A DNA stretch of 64,000 nucleotides from Thermus oshimai DSM 12092 (GTDB lineage Bacteria > Deinococcota > Deinococci > Deinococcales > Thermaceae). Shown here piece after piece: positions 5,411 to 35,630 of the stretch. The notes beneath the pieces are model-generated. The model ran no database searches. It was not told where the DNA came from and saw only the letters and a program-made list of their open reading frames with translations. Numbering within the stretch: position 1 is the first letter of the stretch; every line of letters starts with the position of its first letter. Both the position numbers and the translations under genes were made by a program. The stretch lies in the NCBI RefSeq assembly GCF_000373145.1, contig NZ_KB890603.1, positions 186,001-250,000 of the forward strand, in the 5' to 3' direction.

Positions 5411-6469
5411 CTATACCCCTTTTTCCAGCCTTAAGGGCTCCCCCAGGTAGAGCTTCAGGTGGGGGTAGGGGATCTCTATCCCCTCCCGGTCCAGGCGGTT
5501 CTTGATGCGGCGGCGGAACTCCCGGGCCACGGCCCACTGCTGGGCGGGCTTGGTGCTGAAGAGCACCCGGATGACCACCCCCGAGTCCGCCAGGTTCTGC
5601 ACCCCTAAGACCTCCGGGGGCTCGGTGAAGGCGTCCTGCCACTCGGGGTCCCGGTGGAAGGCCTCCACCTCGTCCCGGAAGACCCCAAGGACCCGGTCCA
5701 GGTCCTCCTTGTAGGCCACGCTCACGTCCACCACCGCCCGACTCCACTCCTGGGTGAGGACGGTGACCTGCTGCACCTGGGAGTTGGGGATGAAGTGCAC
5801 CCGGCCCTCCAGGTCCCTTAAGACGGTGAGGCGCAGGTTGAACCGCTCCACCTGCCCCCCCACGCCCCCGATCTGGACGATGTCCCCCACCCCGTACTGG
5901 TCCTCCAGGAGGATGAAGAAGCCGTTGATGAAGTCCCGGATGAGGTTCTGCGCGGCGAAGCTGATGGCCAGTCCCGCCACCCCCGCCCCCGCCAGGAGGG
6001 CGGTGACGTTGAGGCCCAGGTTGGAGAGGAGGAAAAGCCCCCCCACCACCAGGACCACCCCCTTGAGGAAGGATTCGGACACCGCCCTCAGGGTCTTCCG
6101 CCGCACCGCCTCCCGGGTGAGTTCCGTCCCCTCCGGTTCGGGCAGGCGGCTTAGGAGACGGGGGAGGAGGCGGTAGCCCAGGTAGGTGAGGGCTAAGACC
6201 CCGAGGGCGGCCAGGCCCCGCCCCCCCACCCAGGCCACCAGGGCCTCCCCCCAGCTCCGAAGGGGCTCGTAGGGAAGCCCCAGGGCGTGGGCCAGGTAGG
6301 CCAGGGCCAGGAGGAGGAGGAAGCCCCACCAGCCCCAGGCCAGGAGGCGGAAAAGGGCGTCGTCCCGCTCCCCGGGGATGGCCTGGGCCAGGGCCCGGAA
6401 GAGCCTCCCTCCCAGACGCCCCAGGAGGACCACCGCCGCCAGGGCCAGGAGGAGGTGAAGGGCCGCCAC
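5411..6469 (-). CDS. Small-conductance mechanosensitive channel (MscS family)
   Basis: Membrane channel that releases solutes on hypo-osmotic shock. From the GTG at 6469 it is 352 aa with several N-terminal hydrophobic segments, then the MscS pore helix and beta domain: AGAGVAGLAISFAAQNLIRDF and EDQYGVGDIVQIGGVGGQVERF are diagnostic. The open frame extends further upstream but would run into the divergent hemQ gene, so I prefer this GTG, where a hydrophobic helix begins. A CTG at 6478 is another possibility. The divergent spacing to hemQ is only about 20 bp. Confidence 0.88.
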   Translation of the reverse strand: MAALHLLLALAAVVLLGRLGGRLFRALAQAIPGERDDALFRLLAWGWWGFLLLLALAYLAHALGLPYEPLRSWGEALVAWVGGRGLAALGVLALTYLGYRLLPRLLSRLPEPEGTELTREAVRRKTLRAVSESFLKGVVLVVGGLFLLSNLGLNVTALLAGAGVAGLAISFAAQNLIRDFINGFFILLEDQYGVGDIVQIGGVGGQVERFNLRLTVLRDLEGRVHFIPNSQVQQVTVLTQEWSRAVVDVSVAYKEDLDRVLGVFRDEVEAFHRDPEWQDAFTEPPEVLGVQNLADSGVVIRVLFSTKPAQQWAVAREFRRRIKNRLDREGIEIPYPHLKLYLGEPLRLEKGV

Positions 6470-6478
6470 GGGGTTCAG

Positions 6479-6484
6479 TATAGT
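6479..6484 (+). promoter_or_regulatory. -10 box of leaderless hemQ promoter
   Basis: TATAGT lies 6 bases before the ATG of hemQ. This leaves room for a transcript that begins at or within a base or two of the start codon. No ribosome-binding site separates box and start. Confidence 0.6.
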
Positions 6485-6490
6485 GGGGGC

Positions 6491-7240
6491 ATGGAGCGCC
6501 ACGCGCCGGAGCCCACCTTTACCCTCGAGGGCTGGCAGGTCCTCCACGACTTCCGCACCCTGGACTTCCCCGCCTGGATGGCCGCCCCCAAGGAGGAGCG
6601 GGCGGCGGCCTGGGAGGAGCTGAAGGGCCTCCTAGGGGCCTGGCGGGCCCTGGAGGAAAGGGGCCTTGGCCTTTCCCGGGTCTACCAGGTGGTGACCACG
6701 AAGGCGGACCTCCTCTTCCTCCACTTCCGGGAGGACCTGGACGCCCTTTTGGAGGCGGAAGAAAAGCTCAACAAGAGCCGCCTGGCCCGCTTTCTCCGCC
6801 CGGCCTACGGCTTCTACTCCGTGGTGGAGCTGGGGAGCCAGACCGGCCCCTTGGACCCCGAGGCCCCCTACATCAAGCCCCGCCTCCGCCCCAGGGTGCC
6901 CGAGGGGGGGTACGTCTGCTTCTACCCCATGAACAAGCGCCGCCAGGGGGCGGACAACTGGTACCTGCTCCCCGCCAAGGAAAGGGCCGAGCTCATGAAG
7001 GCCCACGGGGAGACGGGAAGGAAGTACCAGGGGAAGGTCCTGCAGGTCATCAGCGGGGCCCAGGGCCTGGACGACTGGGAATGGGGGGTGGACCTCTTCA
7101 GCGAGGACCCCATCCAGTTCAAGAAGATCGTCTACGAGATGCGCTTTGACGAGGTCTCCGCCCGCTATGGGGAGTTTGGGCCCTTCTATGTGGGCCGCCA
7201 CCTCTCCCCGGAGGCCCTGGCCCGCTTCCTGGAGGTGTGA
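6491..7240 (+). CDS. hemQ: HemQ coproheme decarboxylase / chlorite-dismutase family protein
   Basis: The 249-aa protein belongs to the chlorite dismutase superfamily. Members of this type carry out the last step of coproporphyrin-dependent haem synthesis, the oxidative decarboxylation of coproheme. Diagnostic stretches are YVCFYPMNKRR and NWYLLP in the middle, and KKIVYEMRFDEVSARYGEFG near the C-terminus. The latter contains the region around the proximal haem ligand. Both ferredoxin-like halves are present. True chlorite dismutase activity is unlikely in this non-chlorate context. The downstream gene overlaps its stop codon and is a half-size relative. Confidence 0.9.
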   Translation: MERHAPEPTFTLEGWQVLHDFRTLDFPAWMAAPKEERAAAWEELKGLLGAWRALEERGLGLSRVYQVVTTKADLLFLHFREDLDALLEAEEKLNKSRLARFLRPAYGFYSVVELGSQTGPLDPEAPYIKPRLRPRVPEGGYVCFYPMNKRRQGADNWYLLPAKERAELMKAHGETGRKYQGKVLQVISGAQGLDDWEWGVDLFSEDPIQFKKIVYEMRFDEVSARYGEFGPFYVGRHLSPEALARFLEV

Positions 7241-7719: not shown

Positions 7720-8322
7720 CTAGCGGCTCGCCCATAGGGCCAGGAGGAGGAAAAGGAGGCTCCCAAGGCCCACGGTGAAGAGGGCCGCCCTTCGGGTCCT
7801 CAGCATGAGGAGGCCCAGGGCCAGCCCGGTAAGGCTCACCAGGGCCAGGAAGAGGGCAAAGAGGTCCAGGGCCCATCGCCAGGCCCCCGGGGTGTCCCGG
7901 CCCTTGTGAAGGTCGTTCAGCACCCCCACAAGCCCCGCTTCGGTGACGCTTAGGCGGTAGGCCCCGCTACGGAGGTCCACCTGGGCGTCCGCGGCGTAGC
8001 CGGGGGCGCGGAAGGAAAGCCAGGCCTCCCCCCCGCTTTCCCCGTACTCCGCCACCCGCCCTCTTAGGCCTAGGGCCCGGAGGTCCTCCGCCAGGCGGAG
8101 CCAGTCCACCGCCTCCCCCTGGAGGTAGGGCCCCTGCAGGGTGCCCTGGAGGCGGCGGGTGCGGCCTTCCCCAAACCACTCCGGGTGGTTCAGGGTGAGG
8201 CCGGTGGCCGCGAAGAAGAGGAGGGCCAAAAGGGCCAGGAGGGAGAGGTAGAGGTGCAGGGTGCGGGCAAAGCCGTAAAGCCGCGCCCGGGCCAGCTTTG
8301 CCCTAGGCCTTGCGGTAGTCAA
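7720..8322 (-). CDS. PepSY-associated membrane protein
   Basis: The 200-aa integral membrane protein has one N-terminal transmembrane helix (about 22-42, ending TGLTLNHPEWF), an extracytoplasmic PepSY-like domain (about 60-130) and two C-terminal helices (about 150-198). This is the usual plan of PepSY_TM proteins in transmembrane electron transfer. The TTG at 8322 is chosen because GGAGGT lies 5 bases before it and no ATG or GTG follows before the first helix. It overlaps the DUF2271 gene by 20 bp and is last in the apbE operon. DLRSGAY at 116-122 partly resembles a flavin-attachment site. Confidence 0.75.
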   Translation of the reverse strand: MTTARPRAKLARARLYGFARTLHLYLSLLALLALLFFAATGLTLNHPEWFGEGRTRRLQGTLQGPYLQGEAVDWLRLAEDLRALGLRGRVAEYGESGGEAWLSFRAPGYAADAQVDLRSGAYRLSVTEAGLVGVLNDLHKGRDTPGAWRWALDLFALFLALVSLTGLALGLLMLRTRRAALFTVGLGSLLFLLLALWASR

Positions 8323-8836
8323 GGGCCACCTCCGAAAGCTCCCCCTTCAGGGTGTAGGTCTTCTTGAAGGGTTTGGGGCCGATCTCCACCGCTTCCCGGA
8401 AAAGCTCGTAGGGCCCGTGCTCCCGGGCGTACTCCACGCAGATGTGGTAGCGCCCCTGGGCCACGGGCCGCCCCGCCTCGTCCTTCCCGTCCCAGACCAC
8501 CCGGTACCGCCCGGGGGGGCGGGTGGGGCCGGAGAGGGTGCGCATCCTTTCCGGCGTGCTTTGCAGGAAGTAGCGCCGGAGCTCGTTCCACCACCTTTCC
8601 CCTTTCCCCGGCATGAGGAAAAGGGCCAGGGTGCGCACCAGGTTGCCCCGCTCGTCCTCCACGTAGCAGGCCACGTAGGGGGCCCGGTAGCGGAACCCCC
8701 CGCCCTGGTAGGCGAAGGCCACCTCCAGCTCCATGCCCTGCGGCCAGGGGGCCCCTTGCGCCCGGGCGAGGCCTAGGGCCATCATCCCCATCACCCGGCG
8801 AAAAAACGACCTCCGGCTGTAGTAGCGCTTCAGCAT
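8303..8836 (-). CDS. DUF2271 periplasmic protein with Tat-like signal
   Basis: The 177-aa protein starts with a twin-arginine type leader (RRSFFRRVMGMMALGLARAQ), so it is probably exported folded. The remainder fits DUF2271: a beta-rich domain with YVACYVEDERGNLVRTLALF, FLMPGKGERWWNELRRYF and a closing GRYRVVWDGKDEAG segment. DUF2271 proteins are repeatedly found beside ApbE and PepSY proteins, as here, which suggests a role in an extracytoplasmic redox system. GGGAGG lies 5 bases before the ATG. No catalytic residues can be assigned. Confidence 0.75.
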   Translation of the reverse strand: MLKRYYSRRSFFRRVMGMMALGLARAQGAPWPQGMELEVAFAYQGGGFRYRAPYVACYVEDERGNLVRTLALFLMPGKGERWWNELRRYFLQSTPERMRTLSGPTRPPGRYRVVWDGKDEAGRPVAQGRYHICVEYAREHGPYELFREAVEIGPKPFKKTYTLKGELSEVALDYRKA

Positions 8837-8848
8837 CCTTCCCTCCCT

Positions 8849-9604
8849 TTATGGGCCGGCCTTGGGGCCTTCCCCGGTGAAGAGCACCCCTTGGGCCCCA
8901 TGGGCCTTCAGGATGGGCCAGGCCTCCTCCTTCAGCACGAAGAGGGCCTTGGCCAGGGCCTCCGCCAGGAGGGCGCTTCCCGCCAGGACCGTGGCCTGGA
9001 GCCCCGCCGCGGGCCTCCCCGTCCTGGGGTCCAGGAGGTGGGCCCCCCGGTGGCGGACCCCGCTGGTGGCCACGCCCCCTTCCCCCAGGCGGAGGGTGTG
9101 GGCGGGGGGGGCGTTGTCCGGGCCCAGGGGGTCTTCCAGGGCCACCAGGGCTTCCCCCAGCCCCAGGCGGGCCAGGTCCCCCCCGAGGTTCACCAGGACG
9201 GCCCGGGCCCCCAGGGCCTTGGCCTTGGCCGCCGCCCGGTCGGCGATGTAGCCCTTGGCCAGCCCGTCCAGGTCTATGGGGGCGAAAAGCTCCACCCGGT
9301 TCCCCGCAAGGTGGTAGGGCACCCCCCCATGGCGGGGGGCGGGGTGGAAGGCCCCTTGGGTGGCCTCCATGAGCCTCAGGGCCTCCTCCAGGAGGAAGCC
9401 CATCTCCGGGCTCACTTCCCCTCCTCCTTGGGCCAAAAGCCGGGTGAGCTCGCTCTCCCGGTGGCGGCTGAAGAGGCCTTCCAGGCGGACGACCTCCTCC
9501 TGGATGGCCCTTAGGGCCCGCCGGGCCGCCCAAGGGGGGGCGAGGAGCTGGACCTCCAGGTGGCTTCCCAGCACCCCTTCCCACCTGACCCCGTGCCGGC
9601 CCAT
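8849..9604 (-). CDS. apbE: FAD:protein FMN transferase (ApbE family)
   Basis: Transfers FMN from FAD to a Thr or Ser of target redox proteins. The 251-aa protein carries the family motifs DLDGLAKGYIADRAA, LVNLGGDL, GVATSG and HLLDPRTGRPA. No lipoprotein or Sec signal is evident, although most ApbE proteins act outside the cytoplasm. This is odd and may mean modification before export of the Tat substrate next door. It is first of a three-gene operon (apbE, DUF2271, PepSY). The ATG at 9604 is preceded 7 bases upstream by TACCCT and then by a direct repeat that could bind the divergent response regulator. Confidence 0.88.
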   Translation of the reverse strand: MGRHGVRWEGVLGSHLEVQLLAPPWAARRALRAIQEEVVRLEGLFSRHRESELTRLLAQGGGEVSPEMGFLLEEALRLMEATQGAFHPAPRHGGVPYHLAGNRVELFAPIDLDGLAKGYIADRAAAKAKALGARAVLVNLGGDLARLGLGEALVALEDPLGPDNAPPAHTLRLGEGGVATSGVRHRGAHLLDPRTGRPAAGLQATVLAGSALLAEALAKALFVLKEEAWPILKAHGAQGVLFTGEGPKAGP

Positions 9605-9611
9605 GCCCTAA

Positions 9612-9695
9612 AGGGTAGGGGCGGGCGGTTAGGCGGGCGTTAAATACCGGGCACCGAGGCCAGTAACCTCTGCCTAACCCCTCCTGGCGCATACT
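9612..9695. promoter_or_regulatory. Divergent promoter region with two GTTAG/GTTAA-type direct repeats
   Basis: Towards apbE (minus), the order is TTAAC-N6-CTAAC (9628-9643), 10 bases, then TACCCT (9612-9617) and the ATG 7 bases on. Towards the response regulator (plus), the order is GTAAC-N6-CTAAC (9663-9678), 11 bases, then CATACT (9690-9695) and the ATG 6 bases on. Direct repeats with an 11-bp period just upstream of -10 are typical of OmpR-family regulators. The inference is that the adjacent regulator controls both directions. Confidence 0.6.
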
Positions 9696-9701
9696 GGGGG
9701 C

Positions 9702-10361
9702 ATGCGCATCCTCCTTTTGGAGGACGAGCCCCGCCTGGGCCGGGCCCTGGAGCGGACCCTTTCCGCCCAGGGGTGGAGCGTGGTCTGGGCGAAGGGGCTG
9801 GAGGGGGCGCGGGAGGCCTTCCTCGAGGCCGAGCCCGACCTCATGGTCCTGGACGTGCGCCTGCCCGAAGACGAGGACGGGGGGTTCCGCCTGGCGGAGG
9901 AGGTGCGGAGGGCGGGCTACAAGGGGGCCATCCTCTTCCTCACCGCCCGGGACACCCTGGCGGACCGGGTCTATGGCCTGGACCTGGGCGGGGACGACTA
10001 CCTGGTGAAGCCCTTCGCCCTGGAGGAGTTCTTGGCCCGGGTGCGGGCCCTTCTCCGCCGATCGGCGGAGGTGAAGACGGGACGGCTCGTCCTGGGGCCT
10101 TTGGAGGTGGACCTCTCGGGGCGGGCCGTGCATCGGGAGGGCCAGCGGGTGGACCTTTCCCCCAGGGAGTTCGCCCTCCTGGAGCTTTTGGCCCTGCACC
10201 CCGGGCGGCTTTTCCCCCCGGAGGAGGTGGCGGAGCGGGTCTTCGGGGACGGGGAGAAGGTGGGGGCGGTGAAGGTCTACGTCCACTACCTGAGGCAGAA
10301 GCTGGGCCCGGAGGTCATCCGCACCGTCCCCGGGGGGTACCGGTTGGGGTATGACCCTTAG
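9702..10361 (+). CDS. OmpR-family response regulator
   Basis: DNA-binding response regulator of 219 aa. The receiver domain has the acidic pocket (LLEDEP), the phosphorylation site Asp51 (LMVLDVRLP) and a conserved Lys in YLVKPFA. The C-terminal winged helix has the OmpR-type pattern LSPREFALLELLALHPGRLF and ending VRTVPGGYRLGY. The leaderless start is preceded by CATACT and a direct repeat, which suggests autoregulation. It overlaps the kinase gene by 11 bp. The divergent flavin-redox operon is the likely target. The signal is unknown. Confidence 0.92.
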   Translation: MRILLLEDEPRLGRALERTLSAQGWSVVWAKGLEGAREAFLEAEPDLMVLDVRLPEDEDGGFRLAEEVRRAGYKGAILFLTARDTLADRVYGLDLGGDDYLVKPFALEEFLARVRALLRRSAEVKTGRLVLGPLEVDLSGRAVHREGQRVDLSPREFALLELLALHPGRLFPPEEVAERVFGDGEKVGAVKVYVHYLRQKLGPEVIRTVPGGYRLGYDP

Positions 10362-11580
10362 GGGTAGGCTGGCCCTCTTCCTCCTCCTGGCGGTGGGGGG
10401 TGCCCTCCTGGCCCAGGGGGTTTTGAGCTACGCGGCCTTCAAGGGCCTCATTGAGCGGGACATGGACCGCTCCCTTTTCCTCTACCTCGAGGCCCTCACC
10501 GAGGGGCGCCGCCCCCCCAGGGGGGAGTTCGCCTACCGGCTCCTTGCGGACCACGAGGAAAGGAGCCCGGGCTTCCCCGACCTCCCCCCCCTCCCCCCGG
10601 GCCGGTACTGGCGGGAGGGGTGGCGGGTGGTGGTCTTTCCCGTGCCCGGGGGCACCCTGACCCTGGCCCGCTACGAGCCGGGGGCGGCCTCCGCCCTGGG
10701 CCGCTTCCGCCTGGCCCTTTTGGGTTCCGGGGCCTTTCTCGCCCTCCTTGCCGCCCTCCTCGCCTACCGCCTTGCGGGAAGCGCCCTCAGGCCCCTGGCC
10801 CGCCTCACGGAGGTGGCCCGGGAGGTGGCCGAGGCCCAGGACCTGGCCCGGCGGGTGGAGGTGCGGGGCGGGGGGGAGCTTAAGGCCCTGGCGGAGAGCT
10901 TCAACCACATGCTGGACCGGCTCCAAGCCTTTTGGGAGCGGGAGCGGCGCTTCACCCGGGACGCGGCCCACGAGCTCAGGACCCCCCTGGCCGCGGCCCT
11001 GGCCCAGCTGGAGGCGGCGGAGGCCGGGTACCTGCCCAAGGAGGAGGCCCTTTCCGAGGCCAAGGCGGAGCTCCTCCGCCTCAAGCGCCTGGTGGAGGCC
11101 CTCCTCCTCCTGGCCCGGGAAGGGCGGGTGGAGCGGGTGGACCTGGACCTGGCCCGGCTGGCCGAGGAGGAGGCCCGGCGCTTCGGGGCGGCCTACGAGG
11201 GTCCGGAAAGCCTTCCCTACCGGGGCGACCCCCTCCTCCTGGCCCAGGCCCTGAGGAACCTCCTGCAAAACGCCTTCCTCCACGGGGAGGGGCGGGGGGT
11301 GCGGGTGCGGGTGGGGGTGGAGGGGGGATGGGCCTTCCTCGAGGTGGCGGACCAGGGCCCCGGGCTGCCCCAAGGGGCCTGGGAGGAGGTGGGCCGCCCC
11401 TTCTTCCGGGCCTCGAGCCAACCGGGGGAGGGGCTTGGGCTTTCCGTGGCCAAGAAGGTGGCCGAGGCCCATGGGGGGAGGCTTTCCCTCCAGCCCAACG
11501 CCCCCACGGGCCTCCGGGCGCGTTTGGAGCTTCCCCTAAAAGGTGGGGAGGCGCACCCTGCCTTTCCTCCCTTCCCTTAG
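10351..11580 (+). CDS. Sensor histidine kinase
   Basis: The 409-aa membrane kinase partners the preceding regulator. It has an N-terminal transmembrane helix, a roughly 100-residue extracytoplasmic domain, a second helix near 115-140 and a HAMP segment. These are followed by the phospho-acceptor site (DAAHELRTPLAAALAQLEAA) and an ATPase domain (NLLQNAFLHGEG, DQGPGLPQG, GLGLSVAKKVAEAHGG). All kinase boxes are intact. The ATG lies within the end of the regulator gene. The sensor domain is short and Pro-rich and does not reveal a ligand. Confidence 0.92.
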   Translation: MTLRGRLALFLLLAVGGALLAQGVLSYAAFKGLIERDMDRSLFLYLEALTEGRRPPRGEFAYRLLADHEERSPGFPDLPPLPPGRYWREGWRVVVFPVPGGTLTLARYEPGAASALGRFRLALLGSGAFLALLAALLAYRLAGSALRPLARLTEVAREVAEAQDLARRVEVRGGGELKALAESFNHMLDRLQAFWERERRFTRDAAHELRTPLAAALAQLEAAEAGYLPKEEALSEAKAELLRLKRLVEALLLLAREGRVERVDLDLARLAEEEARRFGAAYEGPESLPYRGDPLLLAQALRNLLQNAFLHGEGRGVRVRVGVEGGWAFLEVADQGPGLPQGAWEEVGRPFFRASSQPGEGLGLSVAKKVAEAHGGRLSLQPNAPTGLRARLELPLKGGEAHPAFPPFP

Positions 11581-33877: not shown

Positions 33878-34969
33878 GGGCAGGGTGAAGGTGAAGCGGC
33901 TTCCCACCCCCACCTGGCTTTCCGCCCAGACCCGCCCCCCCATGGCCTCCACCAACCCCTTGGCCACGGTGAGGCCCACCCCCGTGCCTCCGTCCTTCCG
34001 GCTCCTGGCCCGGTCCACCCGGTAGAAGCGCTTGAAGATGTGGGGCAGGTGCTCCTCGGGGATGCCCACCCCCGTGTCCTCTACGAAGAAGGCCACCTGC
34101 CCTTCCAAGGGATAGGCCCCCAGGGTGGCCCGGCCCCCTTCCGGGGTGAAGCGGAGGGCGTTGTGGAGGAGGTTGGCCAGGACCTGGAGGGCCCTTTCCC
34201 GGTCCGCCAGGACGGGAGGAAGGGGAGGGATGGGGGCCAGCCCCAGGGCCACCCCCTTGCTCTGAAACGCGGGCAGGAAGCGTTGGTAGGCCTCCTCCAG
34301 GAGGGCCTTGGGGGAAAGGGCCTCGAGGCGGATCTCCACCCGCTGCGCCTCCACCCGGGAGACCAGGGCCAGGTCCTCCACCAGGCGCTTCAGGGCCCGC
34401 ACCTCCCTTAGGATCCCCTCCGCGGCCCGTTCCGGGGTTAGCACCCCGTCCGAAAGCCCCTCCGCGTACCCCTGGAGGGCGGAGAGGGGGGTCCTGAGCT
34501 CGTGGGCCACGGTGCCGATGAGCTCCGCCCGGGTTTTCTCCACCTTGTCCAGGGCCTCGGCCAGGCGGTTGAAGTGGAGGGCCAGCTCCCCCAGCTCATC
34601 CCCTTCCAAAGGGGGGAGGCGGAGCCCGTAGTTCCCCTCGGCCATGGCCCGGCTCCCCTGGGCGAGAAGCCGGGCGGTGCGGGCTAAGCGGAGGCTCGGC
34701 ACCAGGGCCACCAGGGCCGCCCCTAAGGCGGAAAGGGGCAGGGCGGCGAGAAGGGCGGAGGTCAGGGTGGCGCGGAGGCCGGCCTCGAGGTCCGCCCTTA
34801 GGGCCTCGGCCATGGCCCCGCCCCCCATCATGGCCAGGGCGTGGGCCATGCGGGCCACGTGCCCCCGGTAGAAGCTGGGGGCCAGGGCCTCGGCCAGGAG
34901 GAAGAGGAGGAATAGCGCGAGGAGCGCCACCAAAAAGTGGCTCAGGCAGAGCTTAAGAAAAAGGCGCAT
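33848..34969 (-). CDS. Sensor histidine kinase (putative copper sensor)
   Basis: The 373-aa kinase has a first transmembrane helix (about 8-30), a short extracytoplasmic loop rich in Met and His (MARMAHALAMMGGGAMAEAL), and a second helix near 75-95. It then has HAMP, the phospho-acceptor VAHELRTPLSALQGYAEG, and ATPase boxes NLLHNALRFTPEGG, VEDTGVGIPEEHL and GGTGVGLTVAKGLVEAMGG. The Met/His-rich sensor loop fits monovalent copper or silver sensing. It overlaps the regulator gene by 17 bp. Copper sensing is inferred from loop and context. Confidence 0.9.
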   Translation of the reverse strand: MRLFLKLCLSHFLVALLALFLLFLLAEALAPSFYRGHVARMAHALAMMGGGAMAEALRADLEAGLRATLTSALLAALPLSALGAALVALVPSLRLARTARLLAQGSRAMAEGNYGLRLPPLEGDELGELALHFNRLAEALDKVEKTRAELIGTVAHELRTPLSALQGYAEGLSDGVLTPERAAEGILREVRALKRLVEDLALVSRVEAQRVEIRLEALSPKALLEEAYQRFLPAFQSKGVALGLAPIPPLPPVLADRERALQVLANLLHNALRFTPEGGRATLGAYPLEGQVAFFVEDTGVGIPEEHLPHIFKRFYRVDRARSRKDGGTGVGLTVAKGLVEAMGGRVWAESQVGVGSRFTFTLPLYRGFTEGG

Positions 34970-35630
34970 CCCCCTCCCGGAAGCGGTAGCCCACCCCCCG
35001 CACCGTTTCTATGAAGCGGGGGTTTTCCGCGTCGTCCCCCAGTTTTCTCCTTAAGGCGGCGATGTGCACGTCCACCACCCGGTCCACCCCCGGGAAGTCC
35101 GGCCCCCAGACCTTTTCCAGAAGCCTCTCCCGGCTGAAGACCACCCCCGGGTGCTGGGCTAAGGTGAGGAGGAGGTCGAACTCCAGGCGGCTTAGGGGGA
35201 GGGGCTCCTCCCCCAGGTAGGCCTCCCGCTTCTTGGGCAAAAGGCGCAAGGGGCCGTAGCGGAGCTCCTCCTTAAGCCCAGCCCGGCGCAGGAGGGCCTT
35301 CACCCGGGCCACCACCTCCCGGGGGCTGAAGGGCTTCACCACGTAGTCGTCCGCCCCCAGCTCCAGCCCCCGCACCCGGTCCTCCTCCTCCCCCCGGGCG
35401 GTGAGGAGGAGGAGGGGGAGTTCGGGCCGGGCCTGGCGGATGGCCTGGGCCACCTGGAAGCCGTCCACCTTGGGCAGCATGAGGTCCAGGACCACCAGGT
35501 CCGCCTGGGGGAAGAGGGCCAGGGCCTCCGCCCCGTCCTCGGCCTTCAGGACCTGGAAGCCCGCCCCCTTAAGGTAGCCCTCCAGGACCTCGAGGATGGC
35601 CGGATCGTCGTCCACCAGGAGCACCTTCAC
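34953..35630 (-). CDS. OmpR-family response regulator (putative CopR)
   Basis: The 225-aa regulator has the acidic pocket VDDDP, phospho-Asp49 (LVVLDLMLPKVDGF), a conserved Lys in YVVKPFSPREV and an OmpR-type winged helix (LSRLEFDLLLTLAQHPGVVFSRE, ending ETVRGVGYRFREG). The GTG start at 35630 overlaps the SHOCT gene stop (GTGA). It is the most likely binder of the five 11-bp-period direct repeats in this island, including the one before its own operon. Confidence 0.92.
   Translation of the reverse strand: MKVLLVDDDPAILEVLEGYLKGAGFQVLKAEDGAEALALFPQADLVVLDLMLPKVDGFQVAQAIRQARPELPLLLLTARGEEEDRVRGLELGADDYVVKPFSPREVVARVKALLRRAGLKEELRYGPLRLLPKKREAYLGEEPLPLSRLEFDLLLTLAQHPGVVFSRERLLEKVWGPDFPGVDRVVDVHIAALRRKLGDDAENPRFIETVRGVGYRFREGDAPFS

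Follow-up and report, generated by a model that had tools for sequence, protein, structure and literature searches.

A conserved direct repeat as the predicted operator of a PmrA/QseB-like two-component system and its ApbE-DUF2271-PepSY operon in Thermus oshimai

DUF2271-PepSY flavinylation systems are widespread, and their purpose has mostly been guessed at, usually as that of iron reductases. PepSY-like flavinylation systems with ApbE, DUF2271 and PepSY components have been described in 3,040 genomes (PMC8238504), and a Caulobacter DUF2271-PepSY system was reported to be under Fur, with iron reduction as the usual guess for its function (PMC12004947). Among the related regulators, PmrA binds head-to-tail to the PmrA box CTTAAT-N5-CCTAAG (PMC4660055, PMC3973317), and PreA of Salmonella (QseBC/PreAB) activates its own operon and neighbouring operons, including the quinone oxidoreductase operon mdaB-ygiN (PMC2653508). 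Class II promoters of PhoB have a direct repeat that spans the -35 region (PMC3348028). In the BcnA-LcoA system, a YceI lipocalin acts together with a cytochrome b561 against lipid peroxidation in envelope oxidative stress (PMC9113575). Our search of the open literature revealed no described Thermus system of such a kind and no response regulator of DUF2271 genes.

The window analysed here, a stretch of 64,000 nucleotides from T. oshimai DSM 12092, contains a two-component system (rr-hk) and, divergent from it, an apbE-DUF2271-PepSY operon:

9702..10361, + strand: OmpR/PhoB-family response regulator (rr; 9702 RR), Response_reg and Trans_reg_C above cut-off
10351..11580, + strand: sensor histidine kinase (hk), HAMP, HisKA and HATPase_c; overlaps the RR gene
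8849..9604, - strand: apbE, FMN:protein transferase family (PF02424); signal peptide not evident
8303..8836, - strand: DUF2271 protein (PF10029), Tat-like N-terminus SRRSFFRR, SGPT at the expected flavinylation site
7720..8322, - strand: PepSY-type membrane protein (PF16357, PF03929), predicted haem-binding electron carrier

The 9702 RR belongs to the OmpR/PhoB family, with 69.7 bits for the receiver domain (cut-off 30.2) and 57.4 bits for the winged-helix Trans_reg_C domain (cut-off 26.2). NCBIfam scores placed it nearest to PmrA/QseB, and the best PDB matches were the BasR/PmrA structures 8jo2 and 4s04, DNA complex included. Enterobacterial PmrA/BasR is the nearest described regulator, but the 9702 RR scored below the cut-off of the PmrA equivalog (NF007928, 159 bits against 330) and below that of QseB, the second-best family (NF007663, 155.9 bits against 345). 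In addition, the base-contacting residues N188, N196 and R210 of PmrA correspond to G, Y and P in the 9702 RR, and PmrA targets lipid A genes, unlike the predicted targets of the 9702 RR. No ApbE, DUF2271 or PepSY protein is named in the QseBC/PreAB regulon as described. A related-loci search in named genomes revealed only response regulators of other phyla with 37-48% identity, none of which is located beside DUF2271 or PepSY.

The ApbE, DUF2271 and PepSY-like genes all lie in one operon, as in the described PepSY-like flavinylation clusters. However, the reported flavinylation motif [S/T]GA[S/T] was not found in the Thermus DUF2271 proteins, 15 of 15 of which carry SGPT, and the Thermus ApbE differs in having no evident signal peptide. 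Furthermore, the Caulobacter system is under Fur control, whereas control by a two-component system is predicted for the Thermus cluster. The start of apbE is pinned by its promoter, ApbE again showing no export signal there and DUF2271 a Tat-like start; flavinylation of DUF2271 ahead of export would be possible. A chlorite dismutase/HemQ-family gene (PF06778; window 6287-7240, + strand) adjoins the cluster in most Thermus genomes. The reading frame orf128 (11591), which follows hk, was considered as a third gene and dropped, having neither a site nor a family.

The intergenic region between apbE and rr carries the following elements:

9664-9678, + strand: TAACCTCTGCCTAAC, a direct repeat predicted to be the operator for autoregulation of rr-hk
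9690-9695, + strand: CATACT, -10-like hexamer for rr, followed by the start codon after 7 nt
9642-9628, - strand: TAACGCCCGCCTAAC, a direct repeat predicted to be the operator for apbE-DUF2271-PepSY
9617-9612, - strand: TACCCT, -10 hexamer for apbE, followed by the ATG (9604) after 7 nt

The original prediction placed NTAAC-N6-CTAAC at both divergent promoters, 10 or 11 nt before the -10 box, and these positions were confirmed: 11 nt separate the + strand repeat from CATACT (rr ATG at 9702), and 10 nt separate the - strand repeat from TACCCT (apbE ATG at 9604). Because the start codons lie about 7 nt after the -10 boxes, both transcripts are likely to be leaderless. TAAC-N6-CTAAC occurs exactly twice in the window, where dinucleotide shuffles predict 0.04 matches, and none of 20,000 simulated 97-bp intergenic regions carried TAAC-N7-TAAC on both strands. 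Genome-wide motif counts were obtained by pattern searches of 2.26 Mb in 24 contigs, which revealed five exact copies of TAAC-N6-CTAAC and none of the reversed motif used as a control. Promoters account for four of the five copies: besides rr and apbE, these belong to a yceI gene whose product is secreted and to an efflux operon arranged as tolC-tolC-MFP-RND. The remaining copy (C2:151262) lacks a -10 box at the matching distance.

RR orthologues with about 75% identity or more were found in 18 of 27 Thermus genomes, the copy in G020, a draft genome, being broken. A motif scan at the orthologous promoters, which the original prediction had proposed as its check, found the repeats conserved: TAAC-N7-TAAC precedes rr in all 18 genomes with the RR, and the mirrored repeat lies inside the intergenic region in 17 of the 18. 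In G010 the mirrored repeat is displaced by about 720 bp and adjoins a degenerate remnant of apbE; G016 has lost both apbE and DUF2271, and its mirrored repeat remains without the -10 box. The distance between the two operators ranges from 6 to 51 bp in the Thermus RR genomes, and is 719 bp after an insertion. Since this gap varies while the repeats hold, the rr and apbE repeats appear to be distinct operators rather than parts of a rigid array. Spacer bases likewise drift between orthologous promoters while the half-sites are kept. The 11-nt gap between repeat and -10 box at rr occurs in this genome only, the other 17 orthologues having 10 nt, and the -10 hexamers themselves are well kept (CATACT in 15/18 aligned rr sites, TACCCT in 16/18 aligned apbE sites). 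On the protein side, the RR recognition segment GEKVGAVKVY[VI]HYL is nearly invariant among intact orthologues. DUF2271 scored above its family cut-off in 15 of the 18 genomes with the RR and in none of the nine without it (Fisher p = 4.7e-5, computed without correction for shared descent).

The operator at the rr and divergent promoters is also kept in other Thermaceae genera. Three further groups contain RR orthologues with 62-72% identity (seven genomes of g4, one of g2 and one of g5). Of the 27 orthologues from four genera, 26 have a repeat that begins exactly 37 bp upstream of the RR start codon, and in the present genome the distance is 38 bp. The divergent operator copy faces a second operon in these genera; in g4 this operon opens with genes for a small secreted protein and a member of a dioxygenase family (PF00775), upstream of apbE-DUF2271-PepSY. 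By pattern search, 14 of the 18 g4 genomes have an operator pair on a single contig (15 with G042, whose pair is split over two contigs), adjacency to the RR being checked at the RR-orthologue loci only. The base before TAACC drifts between genera (C, A/G or T) and the spacing is fixed, which makes these sites useful for learning how paralogous OmpR regulators keep apart. In G049 (g5; L334 7546-7572), the divergent operators overlap as one nearly palindromic element, GGTTAACGCGGGGTTAACCGG, in which one dimer could face either promoter. Two other conserved repeats, TAACGCAAAAATAACGCAAA and TAACAAGGTTGTAACA, were observed in G031-G048 (e.g., G035:C1:598838 and 1707271); they have an 11-bp period, lie 10 nt ahead of a -10 box and are probably sites of other regulators.

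Exact copies of the repeat were located at two further promoters of this genome:

C1:82957: yceI site
C20:99815: tolC site, about 420 bp before the coding sequence

Ahead of the secreted YceI-family gene (PF04264), the repeat is followed after 10 nt by a -10 box; it is exact in 19 of 21 genomes and has one mismatch in the remaining two. The tolC gene (OEP, PF02321) that heads the efflux operon carries the site in 10 of 10 near relatives, and where the operon was read out it consists of tolC-tolC-MFP-RND (AcrB family). The site is still present where the tolC operon is in another place (G010 and this genome, G000), stands at the promoter end of the inverted operon in G008, and persists in G025, which has lost the rr locus. 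Four genomes that lack an RR orthologue likewise retain the yceI site: G005, G014, G025 and, with one mismatch, G004. The yceI promoters of the next genus, g4, were checked and none has the site, so the yceI part of the regulon is confined to Thermus. About 400 bp of unusual sequence, unlike that of other genomes, separates the operator from the first tolC gene here (G000:C20:99830-100240; L195 2831-3236). In G025, a protein similar to the PF06778 HemQ family adjoins the tolC operon.

Alignment of 64 distinct sites revealed that the information lies in TAAC(C), CTAACC and the -10 box, and that the spacers carry little. In all four promoter classes (rr, apbE, yceI and tolC) the -10 hexamer is 10 nt downstream of the repeat; a -35-like hexamer was found in none of them, the -35 position reading ACCCCC-like. 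The tandem head-to-tail half-sites, about one helical turn apart and over the -35 position, have the form of an OmpR/PhoB-family operator, and a site in place of the -35 box at a fixed distance from -10 is the arrangement of a class II promoter. The layout is the same as that of PhoB promoters, but the half-site and the regulator subfamily are different. The PmrA box shares the 5-bp gap and the 11-bp period, and its second half-site, CCTAAG, differs from the CCTAAC of the 9702 sites by one base.

Very probably, to judge from sequence, the repeats are the 9702 RR's own binding sites, and we hold with considerable confidence that both are operators for class II activation of rr-hk and apbE-DUF2271-PepSY by this regulator, with yceI and the tolC-RND operon as additional targets. 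A phosphorylated RR dimer would bind two TAACC half-sites head-to-tail with an 11-bp period, the half-sites standing in for the absent -35 box, and would recruit RNA polymerase via the -10 box 10-11 nt downstream, as PhoB and PmrA do. One operator would thereby drive rr-hk in positive autoregulation, and its mirrored counterpart apbE-DUF2271-PepSY; in the same genome, the RR may also control the yceI lipocalin gene and the tolC-RND efflux operon. That the 9702 RR controls apbE-DUF2271-PepSY and itself, as originally proposed, stands as a prediction, with the operator conserved at 18/18 rr and 17/18 apbE-side promoters. The proposed target list was incomplete, since yceI and the tolC-RND operon carry the site too.

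Several observations stand against this explanation, namely the yceI sites in the four RR-less genomes, the tolC site in G025, the g4 yceI genes without a site, and the tolC site here that is about 420 bp from the coding sequence. The yceI sites in RR-less genomes would be explained by recent loss of the RR or by a different regulator acting there, for which the core regulator encoded close to yceI is one candidate. Another OmpR-family regulator, such as this core RR (G000:C1:76 kb), might own all the sites, with the 9702 RR as only a target or co-user. All genomes contain the core RR, which is near yceI in every yceI-bearing genome read and shares with the 9702 RR the residues V and Y at PmrA positions 192 and 196; other TAAC-type 11-bp repeats also occur in Thermaceae. 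However, the rr site lies at a fixed distance before the RR in every RR genome, across genera, the RR and its target operon co-occur, and among seven OmpR-family regulators here only the 9702 RR is encoded directly behind such a site, which makes ownership by another regulator unlikely.

Since the site overlaps the -35 position, a bound dimer could also cover this region and block polymerase, in which case the RR would repress its targets and itself. We regard such repression as quite improbable, because the lack of a -35-like hexamer at the four promoter classes is what is expected of activator-dependent promoters, and because the fixed 10-nt distance to the -10 box is the class II activation distance in the PhoB model (PMC3348028). 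TAAC-N7-TAAC is a short word and all the genomes are relatives, so that the conserved promoters of related species, sharing descent, are not independent trials. Nevertheless, chance matches or mere common descent can hardly be credited as the source of the repeats: the expectation per window is far below the count found, the half-sites hold while spacers and inter-operator distances drift, and the same word is found at unlinked promoters.

With class II activation by the 9702 RR as the preferred explanation, an envelope redox/toxicant stress response was inferred as the physiological role, as suggested by the known flavinylation, YceI-cytochrome b561 and PreA/QseB pieces. As in BcnA-LcoA, Thermus has both a secreted YceI and a predicted haem-binding membrane protein; unlike there, the Thermus yceI is unlinked to PepSY and joined to it only through the shared operator. 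A tentative and rather doubtful extension is that the Thermaceae PmrA/QseB-like system runs one envelope redox-detoxification regulon (ApbE-DUF2271-PepSY, YceI, the RND pump and, in related genera, a Tat-type intradiol-dioxygenase-family protein) that answers quinone, catechol or lipid-peroxide stress, not iron starvation. Such a regulon would combine a flavinylated periplasmic electron carrier and its haem membrane partner with YceI as a quinone/isoprenoid-binding lipocalin. Iron reduction is also a possible role of the DUF2271-PepSY cluster. The predicted operator is a real and strongly conserved element of a known kind, ordinary in its mechanism, and the regulon appears to be undescribed in the open literature searched. 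It provides a clean predicted operator for a Thermus two-component system, and by tying a DUF2271-PepSY system to a lipocalin and an efflux pump it offers a testable link to envelope redox/toxicant stress.

The same window contains a copper island with a second regulator and operator of this type:

34953..35630, - strand: copper-island OmpR-family regulator, recognition-helix residues different from those of the 9702 RR
35891-35877, - strand: copper-island operator TTTACCGAAGCTTTA (TTTA-N7-TTTA), 11-bp period, 11 nt to TAGAGT

The two sites had been proposed to share one geometry, and indeed the copper operator has the same 11-bp period, with TTTA-N7-TTTA 11 nt from TAGAGT. The recognition helices are also distinct, as proposed, with five of six PmrA-mapped contact positions different: positions 187, 188, 192, 195, 196 and 210 read V, G, V, H, Y and P in the 9702 RR, and D, R, V, A, A and R in the copper regulator. 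However, the suggested contrast of TAAC and TTTA as regulator-specific half-sites fails genus-wide, as the copper operators are mostly CTTTACC/CTTAACC. The copper operator itself matches TAAC-N7-TAAC in five genomes (G004, G008, G009, G015 and G022), and the copper promoter reads CTTACC/CTAACC in three (G003, G010 and G013). Cross-recognition between the copper and 9702 regulators is possible.

In G005, which lacks the 9702 RR, the promoter of the copper island carries the 9702-type half-site in TAACCCTCGCCTAACC (L283 5805, - strand); this site had been considered as an orphan apbE operator, which was rejected once it was identified as the copper-island promoter. A TAACG/GTAACG(CC) family with the same spacing is found in many Thermus genomes, with copies in this genome (G000:C2:275556 and G000:C20:37311) ahead of genes for a secreted protein and a ketoacyl-synthase-like protein. 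Finally, TAACCTGGACGTAACCTCCCCCCTGCTACCCT occurs nearly unchanged in many genomes, twice in some and often near contig ends (e.g., G005:C97:2816, G004:C27:376 and G013:C42:380), and is perhaps the promoter of a mobile element.
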